Origin: Candidatus Omnitrophota bacterium | GTDB lineage: Bacteria; Omnitrophota; Gorgyraeia; Gygaellales; JAHJCI01 | Direction: 5' to 3' | NCBI GenBank assembly: GCA_018813085.1 | Contig: JAHJCI010000047.1 | Span: forward strand, 1-13,005 | Length of the DNA: 13,005 nt | In this document: one piece after another, positions 489-12,787 of the stretch | How positions within the stretch are numbered: position 1 is the first letter of the stretch | Layout of the letters: each line of letters opens with the position of its first letter | Program-made: the position numbers and the translations under genes | Notes under the pieces: generated by a model | What the model was told of the DNA's origin: nothing | What the model saw: only the letters and a program-made list of their open reading frames with translations | Database searches by the model: none

Positions 489-3400
489 TTAATCAGCCGC
501 TTTAAATCTATTCTTGTTGCTATCTTCAACGATCCTTAATGCAATTTCAGCAGGAACCTGTTCATACCTCTTAAATTCCATATTGGCATTGGCCCTTCCA
601 CTGCTTAGGGAACGAAATGCCGTAGCATAACCGAACATTTCAGCAAGGGGTGCTTCGGCGTGAATAACCTTGAGCTTATTTCTTGCCTCAACATTCATAA
701 TCTTACCCCTTTTAGAGCAAATATAAGCTACAACACTGTTCATATACTCTTCGGAAGCAATTACCTCCAGGCTCATATACGGCTCAAGCAATACAGGCTG
801 AGCTTTCATAAAAACCTGCTTAAAACATCCTATGGCAGCAAGCCGAAAAGCAAGCTCAGAAGAATCTACATCATGAAAAGAGCCGTCAAAAAGATTTACC
901 TGAATATCGACAACAGGATAGCCCGCATATACGCCTTTCTGAATTATCTCACGAAGGCCTTTTTTTACAGCAGGTATGAAAGAGATAGGGATAGCGCCTC
1001 CTTTTATTTTATTTACGAATTCAAAACCCTTGCCGCGCTCAAGAGGCCTAATTTCAAAAACAACATGCCCGTATTGGCCTCTGCCGCCGGATTGCTTAAC
1101 ATGCTTATATTCTCCTTCTGCCTGGGAGAGGATTGTTTCTTTATAAGCAACCTTGGGCTGGCCAACCAAAACATCCACGTCAAATTCTTCCTTTAACCTG
1201 TCTACGATAATCTGAAGATGCAATTCTCCCATACCCGAAAGAATGCTTTCTTCGGTGCTTTTATCGACACGTACAGTCAATGTGGGATCTTCTTCAAGAA
1301 GACGCGAGAGCCCCTTGCCAAGCTTATCTTGTTCAGAGCGGGTCTTAGCTACTACACTTAAGGAAACTACCGGAATAGGAAACTGCATTTTCTCAAGCAG
1401 CACGGGATTTTCAGCATCGCTTATAGTATCGCCGGTATTGGTATCATCCAGGCCAATCAAAGCCACTATTTCACCGGCACAGGCGTATTCACGTATTTGC
1501 CTTTGGTTGGCGTGCATCTGCAGAATCCTGCCCACGCGTTCTTTTTTCTCTTTATTAACATTGTATACATATGAGCCTGTCTCTAACAGCCCGGAATATA
1601 CCCTGACATATACCAGCTTGCCCATATGAGGATCAGACTGGACCTTAAAGGCAAATGCGGCAAAAGGCTCGTTTATATCCGGCTTCCTTTCAATGACTTT
1701 ATCCGGCTCTTGCGGGTGATGGCCTTTCACGGGCGGCAAGTCAAGGGGGGAAGGCAGGTAAAGAGTTACCGCATCCAAAAGCTTTTGAATGCCTTTATTC
1801 TTAAGCGCAGAACCGCATAATACCGGAACAATCTTACCGGAGATTGTTCCCGAGCGTATAGCCCGCCTTAATTCATCAGGCGTTACGGAATCCGGAGAAT
1901 CCAGCATCTTCTTCATCAGCTGTTCGTCTTCACTAGCAACCTTCTCAAGCATAAGATTACGGTAATTCAAAGCTGTATCTTTATATTCTGGAGGTATTTC
2001 CTCTTTTTTAAAGTTTTTCCCTGAGTCTTCTTCCTCATATACGTATGCCTTCATTTCAATAAGATCGATTAACCCGCGAAAAGTACTTTCCTCGCCCAGC
2101 GGTATTGCCAGCGGAACAGGATTGGCAGCAAGCTTATCTTCGATTTCCTTTATAACGCCCGCGAAATTTGCTCCCACACGGTCCATTTTATTTACAAACG
2201 CTATTTTGGGTACGTTATACTTATTGGATTGCCTCCATACGGTTTCTGACTGCGGCTCAACTCCTCCCACGGCACAGAATACTGCCACTGCTCCATCAAG
2301 CACGCGCAGGCTTCGCTCCACCTCGGCAGTAAAATCAACATGCCCGGGCGTGTCGATTATATTAATCCTGTTTTCATTCCAGTAGCAGGTGGTTGCTGCC
2401 GAGGTAATGGTAATGCCCCGCTCCTGTTCCTGCTTCATCCAGTCCATCTGGGCTTTGCCGTCGTGAACCTCTCCGATCTTGTGAGAACGGCCCGTATAGA
2501 AAAGGACTCTTTCGGTAAGCGTGGTTTTTCCGGCATCAATATGCGCCATAATGCCGATATTCCTGAGTTTATCCAACTCGAATTCTACAGAGAGCTTTTG
2601 CTTAGTTTCTTCGGGTGGCTCTGGCTTTTTTGCTTCTTTTTCTTCAGCTGACTCTTGAAGCGGCTTTTTTTCCTCGGGTTTGCCTAAAGCCTCGCCAGAA
2701 AAAGAAGAAACTTCCTGAGCCTTGCTTTCTCCGGGCGGTTTTTCTCCAACCTCAGGCTGCTCAGCTTCCTCGGGCGCAGCTGTCTTAGCCTTATCGTTTT
2801 CCTCTACACTGAGGCCGGGTTCTTCTTTCTCTTCGGTCGCGGGCTGGTCTTCGCTAACCTCTTTTTCCCGGGAGGACGGAACAGGCCCTGCCTTAACCGC
2901 AGCAGCATTTCTATTCAGGTTAATGATTTCTTCTGTTAAGAAGATTACTTTTCTATCCTTTACTTCAAGCTCTTTTTCAAGGACGGTATATTCCTCCATC
3001 AGCTTGTTGAACTCTTTTCTGGAAATCCATTCGCTTTCTTCTTCGCGTTTTTTTAATTCGCGGATTGAGCCCTGCTGTTCTTTCCTCTCGTCAATCAGGC
3101 GCTGGATTTGATGCTTCATCCGCTCAATTTCTTCAGCCTTATCTTTAATTTTCTGCTCTTGAGGAGCCATTTTATCGATTAGCTCATTTATCCTGGCATT
3201 CAACTCAACGTTCTTTGAAAACTCCCCGGTTAGTTCCTTTTCCTTCTCCAGGAACCGGCTCCTGTAGGATGCGCATTCTTCTTTAATCTTATCTAAATTC
3301 TCTTCGCTCTTAGAAACCCATTCTTCTCTTTTTTCTATCTTAGCGCTTAAATCCGCTTGCTGTTTTTTATGCTCCTGCGATTGCAGGCTCGCGGCACTAT

Positions 3401-3614
3401 ACTCTGCTTTGATTTTATCAAGCTCTGACTTTAAGGAATTCATCTCCTCCTTGAGCCTGGACTTATCCCTCCTGAGATTTTCCTCTGTTTGCTTGAACAT
3501 ACGGGATTCATTTTGGGACTTTTTATATTCAGTATCCGTAACAGGAGAGAAGAATACCGTATAGGTAGCCCAAATAAGAACTAGAGAAGCTGAAATTACG
3601 AATAACAAAATCAT
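489..3614 (-). CDS. Membrane-anchored coiled-coil / elongation factor G fusion
   Basis: This 1041-residue protein carries a full-length EF-G (about residues 347-1041, the usual size of roughly 690) behind a 346-residue extension. Extension: one hydrophobic segment (2-22), then a Lys/Glu-rich heptad-like coiled coil (about 31-235), then a Glu/Pro/Lys-rich low-complexity linker (about 240-340). The positively charged flank after the segment predicts a cytoplasmic coil and EF-G. EF-G motifs are intact: AHIDAGKTT (357-365), RGITITS (399-405), DTPGH (421-425), NKMD (475-478) and GSALK (601-605). The G' insert, domains II and III, domain IV (GGRGQYGHV 843-851; [10 protein letters not shown] 911-920) and domain V follow, so translocase chemistry should be retained. 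The ATG has a strong GGAGG 4 bases upstream, while no ribosome site precedes the EF-G domain, so the fusion looks like the translated product. It stands alone, outside any str operon, which suggests a paralogue of the housekeeping fusA. EF-G identity is near certain; a specialised role is inference. Confidence 0.93.
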
Positions 3615-3618
3615 TTAA

Positions 3619-3623
3619 CCTCC
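3619..3623 (-). promoter_or_regulatory. Shine-Dalgarno GGAGG of the EF-G fusion
   Basis: On the minus strand GGAGG is followed by TTAA and then ATG, a near-ideal ribosome site. It decides the start at 3614. That places the membrane segment and coiled coil in the translated product rather than in an untranslated or separate reading frame. Confidence 0.8.
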
Positions 3624-3668: not shown

Positions 3669-3737
3669 GACTTGTTTTTCTAAAGCATAAGCTGTTTGAC
3701 CAAAACGGAATATTTTGATAGTTTTTAACGCTGAATG

Positions 3738-3746
3738 TGGTATAAT
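3738..3746 (+). promoter_or_regulatory. Extended -10 promoter TGGTATAAT of the HD-GYP gene
   Basis: A perfect TATAAT (3741-3746) is preceded by TGG, giving the extended -10 form TGnTATAAT, which can work with a weak -35. TTGATA at 3715-3720 resembles a -35 but lies 20 bases away, which is long. Transcription should start near 3752-3754, at or next to the ATG at 3754. Confidence 0.6.
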
Positions 3747-3753
3747 ATTCAAA

Positions 3754-5133
3754 ATGAAAAATAATTTTTACCTTGATATCGCTACTGCCAATAACCTGGG
3801 GATAGGGCTTTTTAAATACTCCCTGCTGCCGGAAGAAAAGTTTTTTCTTGTCAATTCTACCTTTAGTGACATATTAGGTTACCCCTCTGTTGAAGACCTG
3901 GAGAATGAAAAACTAGGCAACCTTTTTTATAAGGCCTCTGATAAAGAGGCATTCTTTGCGGCTTTAAAGAAAGAGGGGAAAATCAAGTTCTTTGAAACCA
4001 GCTTTAAGGATAAGCGCGGAAATATTCCCTGGATAGCAATTACCGCATCCCTGGTAACCTCGGCTAATCAGGAAGAATATATCGAGGGCATGATCGAGGA
4101 TATTACCTCCCACAAAAAAATGGAGGAGCAATTATCCCTGGAAAGGGACTTTCTACAGGGACTGCTGGATAATATCCCGGATGCTATTTATTTTAAGGAC
4201 CTCCTTAACCGCATTATCAAAGTAAATCAGTTTTATGCAAAAGGCGTTGGGCTTAATCCTGAGGAAATCGTAGGCAAGACAGATTTTGATTTCTTTCCGC
4301 ATGACCAGGCGCAAAAAATGTTTGATGACGACAATAGGATTATTAAAACCGGCAAACCTATTATCGGCGAGATAGAACGCACCCTACTTAAAAACGGAAC
4401 ATGGAATCAGGTAATTACTACAAAGATCCCGATGTGTGACAGGGAAGGAAAGATCATAGGAACAATGGGAATAACCCGGGATATGACTGCTTACGCCAAC
4501 CTTGAGAAAGAACGCATTGCCATGGTTATAAACTCACTCACCGTCCTGGGCAGGGCATTGGAGATGCGCGACCCCTACACCTTCAGCCACACGCGCCATG
4601 TAGCCAATATCGCCGAGAAAATAGGAGAAGCGCTGGGCTGGGATAAGAACCGGCTGCTGGGAATAAAATTAGCCGGAGAATTACACGACCTGGGTAAGAT
4701 CAGTATTCCTCTGGACATATTGAATAAACCCGGAAAGCTAAGCGACCTGGAATACAGTTTTGTTCAGCAGCACGTGATCAAATGCTATAACCTTATTAAA
4801 GACATAGATTTTCCTTTTGCCTTAGCTGAAATAATATATCAACACCATGAACGCTTAGACGGTTCCGGCTATCCCCGCAAGCTAAAAGGAGACGAAATTC
4901 TACTGGAATCGCGCATCCTTGCTGTAAGCGATGTCCTGGAATCAATGGTTTCATACCGGCCCTACCGCCAGGCGCTGGGCTTTGATACGGCCTGCGCAGA
5001 ACTGATTCAGGGCCGAGGTTCAAAATACGATCCGCAAATTGTAGAGATCATGCTTAACCTCGTCAATGAAAACGGCAAAAAGCCATTCTGGCATATCCCC
5101 GGATTCCTGGATCCATTTTCTATTCCCTCATAA
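3754..5133 (+). CDS. PAS-PAS-HD-GYP cyclic-di-GMP phosphodiesterase
   Basis: This is a 459-residue soluble sensor enzyme. Two PAS modules (about 20-119 and 131-247) are each followed by the usual exit segment (IEDITSHKKMEEQL; GITRDMTAY). An HD-GYP domain (about 259-437) follows, with metal and signature residues in place: H279 in FSHTRHV, HDLGK (311-315), HHERLDGSGYP (364-374) and the RILAVSDVLESMVSYRPYR stretch. HD-GYP enzymes hydrolyse c-di-GMP to pGpG or GMP. The PAS domains presumably sense redox, ligand or light input, but no cofactor residue can be read. There is no transmembrane segment or receiver. An in-frame TTG at 3715 would extend the protein by 13 residues, but that stretch contains the TATAAT box, so the ATG at 3754 is preferred, giving a probably leaderless mRNA. 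The PilZ protein at 6529 is a possible responder in the same signalling network. Confidence 0.9.
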   Translation: MKNNFYLDIATANNLGIGLFKYSLLPEEKFFLVNSTFSDILGYPSVEDLENEKLGNLFYKASDKEAFFAALKKEGKIKFFETSFKDKRGNIPWIAITASLVTSANQEEYIEGMIEDITSHKKMEEQLSLERDFLQGLLDNIPDAIYFKDLLNRIIKVNQFYAKGVGLNPEEIVGKTDFDFFPHDQAQKMFDDDNRIIKTGKPIIGEIERTLLKNGTWNQVITTKIPMCDREGKIIGTMGITRDMTAYANLEKERIAMVINSLTVLGRALEMRDPYTFSHTRHVANIAEKIGEALGWDKNRLLGIKLAGELHDLGKISIPLDILNKPGKLSDLEYSFVQQHVIKCYNLIKDIDFPFALAEIIYQHHERLDGSGYPRKLKGDEILLESRILAVSDVLESMVSYRPYRQALGFDTACAELIQGRGSKYDPQIVEIMLNLVNENGKKPFWHIPGFLDPFSIPS

Positions 5134-11949: not shown

Positions 11950-12501
11950 ATGCAAGAGATATTAGAGGAAATTTTAATAAAGGCGGCAGCAGGCGATATG
12001 GAGGCATTTGAGAATATATATAAAATAACCTCCGGTTTTGTATATAACGTTGCCTTACAGATTACAAACAATAAAGAAGAGACAAAAGAGCTAACCCGGA
12101 AAGTATTTCTTAAGATACATAAGAATCTTAAAAAGTTCCGCTTTGCTTCTTCTTTTAGAACCTGGATATACAGAATGGCCGTTAACGCGGCAATAAATAC
12201 CTCAAAAAAAAGATCAAGAGAAAGCAGTAGAAAACCCGGTTATGAAGAAGGCTTCTTGTATGACTCTCTTACTGAAAGCTTAAAGCAGAGGCTTGATAAA
12301 AAGAAAAACGAAAACCTGGTACGCTTATTGCTGGATTCGCTCAGGCCTGTGGAAAGAGCATGTTTGGTATTAAGGGATATGCAGGGTTTAAGCTATAAGG
12401 AAATTTCCGATACATTAGGGATTGATATCAATACAGTGCGCTCGCGCCTTGGGAGGACAAGAGAAGCGCTTCTGAAAACGGTTAAAAAAGAGGTAATTTA
12501 A
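11950..12501 (+). CDS. ECF-family RNA polymerase sigma factor
   Basis: This 183-residue sigma factor has only the two ECF domains. Sigma-2 (about 10-90) contains AFENIYKITSGFVYNVALQI and the core-binding and -10 region leading to FRTWIYRMAVNAAIN. Sigma-4 (about 122-178) contains LRPVERACLVLRDMQGLSYK and the helix-turn-helix EISDTLGIDINTVRSRLGR. A Lys/Arg/Ser-rich linker joins them. It would direct RNA polymerase to a dedicated regulon and be held inactive by the anti-sigma factor encoded one base downstream. AGAGGG just before the ATG is the ribosome site. The usual ECF stretch with D-A-E-D-L-x-Q-E-V-F is diverged here to KEETKELTRKVF, but the fold pattern is clear. Target promoters are unknown; autoregulation is common in the family. 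Confidence 0.92.
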   Translation: MQEILEEILIKAAAGDMEAFENIYKITSGFVYNVALQITNNKEETKELTRKVFLKIHKNLKKFRFASSFRTWIYRMAVNAAINTSKKRSRESSRKPGYEEGFLYDSLTESLKQRLDKKKNENLVRLLLDSLRPVERACLVLRDMQGLSYKEISDTLGIDINTVRSRLGRTREALLKTVKKEVI

Positions 12502-12502
12502 A

Positions 12503-12787
12503 ATGGGCTGCAAAATGGTTAAAGATTTGCTCACGGATTATATTGATGAAGAACTCAACCAAGAACTGCGCAGCGAAATAACCAGGCATCTGGATAGCTG
12601 TTCATCCTGCAGAGAATTAAATGAATCCTTAAACCTGCTCACAGGGCAATTTAGACAAATACCCAGGGCAGAAGCGCCGGGCAGGATATGGGGCCAAATA
12701 AGAGAAGCAATAACAACTAAAGAAAAAAAACACTTTCTGCCTACCGGTTTAGTTGAAAAAAAGAAGAAGCCAACCGGGAAACGGTAA
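12503..12787 (+). CDS. Zinc-finger (zf-HC2) anti-sigma factor without membrane segment
   Basis: This 94-residue protein has the anti-sigma zinc-binding pattern C3, then LTDYIDEELNQEL, then HLDSCSSC with the HxxxCxxC ligands H29, C33 and C36. Such domains clamp the partner ECF sigma factor and release it on oxidation, unfolding or proteolysis. Most relatives carry a transmembrane segment and a periplasmic sensor after this domain. Here the protein stops after a short Lys-rich tail (EKKKKPTGKR) with no hydrophobic stretch, so it is predicted to be cytoplasmic. It begins one base after the sigma stop, with AGAGG about 10 bases upstream. An alternative ATG at 12515 would lose C3 and is less likely. 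The stop lies 33 bases before the tandem repeats, which may have trimmed a longer ancestor. That last point is speculation. Confidence 0.85.
   Translation: MGCKMVKDLLTDYIDEELNQELRSEITRHLDSCSSCRELNESLNLLTGQFRQIPRAEAPGRIWGQIREAITTKEKKHFLPTGLVEKKKKPTGKR

Follow-up and report, generated by a model that had tools for sequence, protein, structure and literature searches.

An elongation factor G carried on a predicted membrane-anchored coiled coil of fixed length in Omnitrophota

The window analyzed here is the whole contig JAHJCI010000047.1 (13,005 nucleotides) of a Candidatus Omnitrophota bacterium of the class Gorgyraeia (assembly GCA_018813085.1; genome G000 below). An open reading frame on its minus strand (489-3614) starts with ATG and encodes a protein of 1041 aa, and a Shine-Dalgarno sequence GGAGG was read directly at 3619..3623 (minus strand), 4 nt 5' of the ATG. 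Seven segments were distinguished along the protein, all on the minus strand. Residues 1-21 (3552..3614) form a predicted membrane anchor, which is joined to the coil by a stretch modelled with low confidence (residues 22-38, 3501..3551; AlphaFold2 pLDDT below 50 at residues 22-43). The first coiled-coil helix (residues 39-193, 3036..3500), delimited by alignment, periodicity, AlphaFold2 and the W99-W196 spacing, contains the conserved stretches REEWVxKSEE and KEKELxxEFxKNV. A conserved break, SEWIS here and mostly SEWVP in relatives (residues 194-198, 3021..3035), separates it from the second coil helix (residues 199-241, 2892..3020; consensus KxEFNKLNEEYTELEKELE), which was placed by alignment and AlphaFold2. 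Then comes a Pro/Glu-rich linker, predicted to be disordered and varying in length among relatives (residues 242-343, 2586..2891), and finally a complete elongation factor G (EF-G; residues 344-1041 with the stop codon, 489..2585).

The AlphaFold2 model of the 1041-aa protein was made with a 21-row alignment (mean pLDDT 68, pTM 0.44) and gave a helix of membrane length at residues 2-21, helices at 39-193 (155 residues) and 199-241 (43 residues), pLDDT below 50 at residues 243-340 and EF-G elements thereafter. The initial annotation of this locus had placed a membrane anchor, a coiled coil and an acidic Pro/Glu linker in front of the EF-G, and the model, the heptad period and the charge distribution all bore this out. 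As it had suggested, the coil and its topology were predicted. No K or R precedes the hydrophobic helix of the window protein, and in relatives the segment after it is rich in K/R; the K/R count was higher after the helix than before it in 94 of 94 rows, copies retained (mean 5.07 vs 0.09). By the positive-inside rule the N-terminus is thus predicted to lie outside, and the coil and the EF-G would face the cytosol. The hydrophobic period of 3.5 residues in the window protein was equalled by none of 2000 shuffles; the same test on four relatives gave 0, 0, 1 and 0 of 2000, and on the alignment average 0 of 2000. The register shifts once, around residue 183 and next to the point where the conserved SEWVP motif breaks the helix.

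The length of the coil is held constant. W196 was invariant in all 21 aligned rows, and the spacing from W99 to W196, with values of 80-130 allowed, was 97 residues in 64 and 104 in 7 of the 71 measurable coil rows, which are related to each other (78 rows in total, 7 lacking one of the tryptophan motifs). No other value occurred, fused and stand-alone proteins were alike, and one heptad is exactly the difference between the two spacings. By contrast, 89 to 111 residues precede the first tryptophan, and between the second tryptophan and the EF-G there are 116 to 236 residues (68 rows, copies retained), so the coil length is fixed and its ends are free. At 0.15 nm per residue the two helices (155 + 43 residues) correspond to a rod of about 30 nm, broken at SEW(V/I)(P/S), residues 194-198. 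The initial estimate of about 30 nm for a continuous coil therefore stood for the length, but not for continuity, as the rod is not a single helix. Searching the coil profile against PDB chains returned weak coiled-coil matches only (best E 0.0017). When the 1041-aa protein was searched, residues 1-343 had no Pfam match, and the best 25 of 37 NCBIfam families listed all fell on the EF-G. Likewise, no Pfam family exceeded its gathering score in the stand-alone copies L066 and L102 or in the distant copy L008.

The EF-G half was recognized by the TIGR00484 equivalog (1010 bits vs a cut-off of 659, residues 344-1033), and every Pfam domain of EF-G was present. We located AHIDAGKT at residue 357, DTPGH at 421, NKMD at 475 and CGSA at 600, together with GRGQYG at 844 and a ten-letter stretch at 911, which we take to be the EF-G GTPase motifs and the tip loops of domain IV, respectively; all were intact. 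The initial description of a complete EF-G with all GTPase motifs and domain IV was thus upheld. Taking as reference the 136 positions invariant in E. coli, the str-type EF-Gs and the unfused paralogues, 132 were unchanged in 90% or more of the 52 fused rows, while 56 of the 136 failed the same test in the 13 EF-G2-like rows. Two otherwise conserved positions were altered specifically in the fused clade, presumably E548 to S/N and Y680 to A in E. coli numbering. The protein scored below the NCBIfam cut-offs for tetracycline ribosomal protection (397/775 bits), RF3 (265/473), LepA (183/534) and TypA (218/757), and also below those of the EF-G2 models PRK12740.1-1 and Bacteroides EFG2 (503/890 and 482/1000 bits, respectively). 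By its residues, the fused EF-G looks like a functional translocase.

As the initial annotation had also proposed, the N-terminal part and the full architecture were searched for in related genomes. Genome G002, from another genus of the same family, encodes the same architecture with 67% identity over residues 1-1038. At least 62 of 384 genomes of the class, spread over 7 families, carry an EF-G frame of 991-1170 aa, a lower bound because two candidates were scored per genome and counted among the matches listed; all 62 also match the coil profile, and the single-contig assemblies G272 and G310 are among them. Among those of the 25 closest pairs with estimable dS, dN/dS was 0.05-0.15 for the membrane helix and coil, 0.16-0.48 for the linker and 0.02-0.08 for the EF-G, showing that both halves are under purifying selection. 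An assembly join or a missed stop, which the initial annotation had named as a way in which it could be wrong, is countered by G002 and by the at least 62 genomes with the same architecture.

A scan of GTDB (one genome per species) with two coil peptide patterns, which distant forms could escape, found 64 loci (copies retained), of which 44 were fused (43 recognized by the G1 motif and L081, which reaches a contig end, by its tail), 18 had the coil alone and 2 were assigned to neither class. The concern that the two parts might always be separate genes in relatives thus met a mixed outcome, fusion in 44 of the 64 loci and the coil alone in 18. Sixty-one of the loci are titled Omnitrophota or Omnitrophica and the three others "bacterium", "uncultured bacterium" and "Planctomycetales". 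The last of these, L069 (SBBM01000006.1, Planctomycetales bacterium), carries the fusion and groups within the Omnitrophota in the EF-G tree, so that its bin is probably misnamed. The coil had matches in 32 of 155 genomes from the phylum, and the matches listed were all in the window's own class. A search of residues 1-345 against 5.8 billion proteins (7999 candidates scored, 0.55-1.75 times the full length, a range that excludes lone coils) gave 20 matches at E ≤1e-3, its own included; all had EF-G domains, and the one that was named is called "elongation factor G". Two fused relatives contain in-frame stops, a TAG after about residue 413 in that of G315 (L018, G315:C86), which is one of the 62 genomes, and a TGA within the coil match in G360:C3; a real interruption, an overrun of the match at its upstream side or a sequencing error are candidate explanations.

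In a tree of 101 EF-G rows, comprising EF-Gs of the class genomes, the GTDB loci and E. coli and built by a quick method with SH-aLRT values and no bootstrap, the 52 fused rows formed one clade (SH-aLRT 98). Together with 7 unfused paralogues, such as G000:C37, they made up a group of 59 rows (SH-aLRT 100), to which the 28 str-type EF-Gs and the 13 EF-G2-like proteins did not belong. Since the fused EF-Gs form a single clade, one fusion is the simplest account. The fusA paralogues were counted, a further suggestion of the initial annotation, and four EF-G-like genes were found in the window's own genome. At least one further EF-G that is not EF-G2-like occurs in 59 of the 62 fused genomes (partial genes counted; that of G316 was classed by its score per position); G272, G062 and G338 (68% complete) are the exceptions. 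As rpsG is absent from G272 and G062 as well, their assemblies probably miss the str stretch, and the idea that the fused protein is the sole EF-G there (G272 being one contig) was dropped. The main EF-G of almost all these genomes is another gene, and the fused one comes in addition to it. An EF-G2-like paralogue was present in 56 of the 62 fused genomes (partial genes counted; G298 by score) and in 1 of 6 genomes carrying a stand-alone coil only. Five of these six (G004, G121, G135, G161, G300) have a single EF-G, and G247 has one EF-G2-like protein besides. The EF-G2-like paralogues (G000:C43, L004 and relatives) are about 650 aa long and have lost many of the EF-G-invariant residues.

The membrane coil also occurs without an EF-G. 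The coil profile matched 121 of 384 class genomes (E ≤1e-8), the matches being fused genes (a number of them truncated where the contig ends), close stand-alone copies of 236-412 aa and a distant stand-alone family, mostly of 210-315 aa, which is widespread in the class and occurs in several of its families. One distant copy lies in the window's own genome (L008, G000:C81, 64-807, plus strand), a membrane-anchored coiled-coil protein of 247 aa with 27% identity to the anchor of the fused EF-G. A RarA-like AAA ATPase lies directly upstream in 25 of the 44 fused loci and in 11 of the 20 other loci (2 of the 20 assigned to neither class); before it come often pheS-pheT and in some loci rplT. Many loci have a cyclophilin, a UvrD/PcrA-like helicase and RNase Y downstream, and NifU/IscU and 5-formyl-THF cyclo-ligase were seen there too; the RarA-like and UvrD/PcrA-like assignments score below the curated cut-offs. 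Several stand-alone coils occupy the same operon slot as the fused genes. The 489-3614 gene and its counterpart in G002 lie outside the pheST-RarA operon. The distant stand-alone family is located in another gene cluster, where no link to translation was seen among its neighbors (no profile annotation).

In a tree of the coils the stand-alone rows were scattered among the fused rows, with at least 3 changes of state forced by starred branches and 8 changes in the tree without the distant family; these changes may be gains or losses, and the tree, from which identical sequences were removed, was made by the quick SH-aLRT method and has long branches and weak forks. No remnant of an EF-G was found beside the lone coils in 25 loci (tblastn, best E 2.1), where the absence is weak for L081, L091 and L094, which end soon after the coil. 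Repeated loss of the EF-G is the likelier course because the fused EF-Gs form one clade; judged from these trees, the EF-G probably disappeared on several occasions and left the rod behind, and some basal lone coils may instead be ancestral. Since the coil persists in relatives without the EF-G, it seems to have a use of its own, which the initial annotation had not foreseen.

The translation starts of 54 distinct fused genes (identical sequences removed) were surveyed for a soluble product. In the last 40 codons before G1 the only shared ATG was the Met of RNIGIM (50 of 54 genes), which lies inside the G domain and is preceded by a 4-nt Shine-Dalgarno-like motif in 19 of the 50. Some in-frame start with such a motif of at least 4 nt was present within the last 80 codons in 30 of the 54 genes, and the positions, tallied for ATG only, were scattered; strong internal motifs (at least 5 nt) occurred in 3 genes, the 489-3614 gene not among them. 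On this pattern an internal start yielding a soluble EF-G is improbable. At the full-length start a Shine-Dalgarno-like motif of at least 4 nt was found in 25 of the 54 genes and none in 29, so the perfect Shine-Dalgarno noted initially holds for the 489-3614 gene, but not for most of its relatives. In genome G040 (323 sampled genes) the codon usage of the fused gene ranked at the 17th percentile, with the str-operon EF-G at the 45th, the EF-G2-like gene at the 68th and EF-Tu at the 89th; on this weak scale there is no sign of high expression of the fused gene.

Compared with known systems, the fused EF-G half shares its domains, GTPase motifs and domain IV loops with the bacterial EF-G of the str operon (fusA; TIGR00484), being 51-52% identical to str-type proteins of the same family, and differs by belonging to a separate clade and by 343 additional N-terminal residues with a membrane helix, a coil of fixed length and a disordered linker. 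An EF-G has reportedly been joined to a ribosomal protein in the man-made L9-EF-G chimera. There, too, the EF-G is carried by an N-terminal fusion (PDB 4wpo and others). The nearest unfused kin in the tree is the EF-G paralogue G000:C37 (L002), 67% identical to the EF-G half, which is 698 aa long and has neither anchor nor coil. EF4 (LepA) belongs to a different GTPase family (the fused protein scores 183 bits against its cut-off of 534), and to our knowledge it has no membrane helix or coil. This translational GTPase of bacteria is reported to be located mainly at the membrane, with 80% of the molecules there in E. coli according to the part of that report consulted (PMC4085283). The EF-G2 of Bacteroides, described as induced by carbon limitation, is a precedent for a specialized second EF-G, and no membrane link was seen in the part of the text consulted (PMC6989115).

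The best analogue of a tethered EF-G, likened by architecture alone, appears to be the pair kinectin (KTN1) and RRBP1/p180, each described as a protein that has a large coiled coil behind a single N-terminal membrane helix and holds EEF1B at the ER (PMC13231004, consulted in part). The likeness, which on our side is by prediction, is that an N-terminal membrane helix and a long cytosolic coil bring an elongation factor to the membrane; kinectin and RRBP1 differ in being eukaryotic and in binding their factor, an exchange-factor complex, instead of being fused to it. In the parts of PMC13231004 consulted, loss of the contact with EEF1B is cited as lowering the expression of membrane proteins, and in the study itself global translation was unchanged. 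The initial annotation knew of no described EF-G with this architecture, and this agrees with our search: no membrane-anchored or coiled-coil EF-G was described among the full-text matches listed, most subscription journals lying outside their scope. The words "membrane", "coiled" and "transmembrane" do not occur in a survey of translational GTPases (PMC4342817), nor does "elongation" in an Omnitrophota survey (PMC10066038). The architecture and the fixed-length anchor are new to us and are unnamed in the family libraries used, and the molecule itself is an EF-G by family.

We propose that the gene encodes an additional EF-G on a membrane-anchored coiled coil, a translocase tethered for membrane-bound ribosomes, and we give this reading about an even chance. 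With the N-terminus outside and the EF-G in the cytosol, the coil would pair in parallel, so that each tether would bear two EF-Gs held away from the membrane by about 30 nm of rod and a flexible linker; dimerization and topology are here deduced from the sequences. The tethered EF-G would catalyze translocation on membrane-held ribosomes during co-translational insertion and export, and the soluble EF-G of the str operon would serve the remaining ribosomes; the location at the membrane and the preference for membrane-bound ribosomes are likewise inferred. A family of small membrane coiled-coil proteins that already existed was probably the source of the anchor and rod, which, because they persist where the EF-G is absent, would still have a job of their own, perhaps as a membrane scaffold or a ribosome-side adaptor.

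EF-G is commonly regarded as a freely diffusing factor. If our proposal is true, some bacteria control where translocation occurs, as eukaryotes may do at the ER. More tentatively, a dimeric membrane rod of fixed length might present its two EF-Gs to membrane-bound polysomes and serve a large share of the ribosomes, the rod alone being perhaps a bacterial counterpart of kinectin/p180. Omnitrophota cells are given as about 0.2 μm in the part of the survey consulted (PMC10066038), and with a reach of 30-40 nm the tether would cover much of the cytoplasm and could serve many ribosomes. An extra EF-G on a membrane anchor and a long rod, as carried by many Omnitrophota, suggests that part of protein synthesis in these tiny bacteria may be tied to the membrane. 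The system is testable, as it consists of one gene for which nature supplies a soluble paralogue as a control and relatives that lack the EF-G half.

The occurrence of the coil without an EF-G in several lineages is evidence against the tether role, as the EF-G is dispensable there. Further points against that role are the codon usage in G040, with its lack of any sign of high expression, the location of the 489-3614 gene and its G002 counterpart outside the pheST-RarA operon, and the neighbors of the distant stand-alone family, among which no link to translation was seen. The lone coils also lead to the main rival, in which the work is done by the membrane coil, acting as a scaffold or ruler, and the EF-G head grips the GTPase center of ribosomes and brings them to the membrane. 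Such a ribosome receptor would fit the lone coils scattered among fused ones (at least three forced changes in the quick tree), the fixed rod beside a variable linker, and the related stand-alone family that is widespread in the class and has a member in the window's own genome. However, relaxation would be expected in a head that does no more than grip, and the EF-G keeps nearly all invariant residues, the GTPase motifs and the domain IV loops included, so that we regard the receptor as unlikely. The intact domain IV loops, which are used in translocation, speak as well against a role in recycling or hibernation, in which the tethered EF-G would split idle ribosomes or keep them at the membrane, perhaps together with its EF-G2-like paralogue. 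The frequency of that paralogue (56/62 fused vs 1/6 genomes with stand-alone coils only) favors this role, but 4 of those 6 genomes belong to one genus and the association is poorly independent; we think the role improbable.

A soluble EF-G might also be released, by a protease acting on the linker or by internal initiation, with the membrane part as its carrier or regulator. The linker is disordered, variable and under weaker constraint, and in 30 of the 54 genes the 80 codons before the EF-G contain a possible in-frame start behind a 4-nt motif, but no ATG is shared in the last 40 codons save the one inside the G domain, and release of this kind is in our judgment improbable too. An artefact of assembly or gene calling could be suspected from the source, since the 13-kb contig that makes up the window comes from an assembly of 225 contigs that is 75% complete. 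This is refuted by the conservation of the architecture in at least 62 of 384 class genomes, including single-contig G272 and G310, and by dN/dS well below 1 in both halves, and we give it practically no chance. The tethered translocase remains our preferred reading.

Two other places in the window were noted. A gene for a PAS-PAS-HD-domain protein (3715-5133, plus strand) is divergent from the EF-G gene and by its first possible start lies about 100 bases from it, so the two may share a control region. Further along (11950-12787, plus strand), an ECF sigma factor is followed by a zf-HC2 protein, the usual sigma/anti-sigma arrangement.
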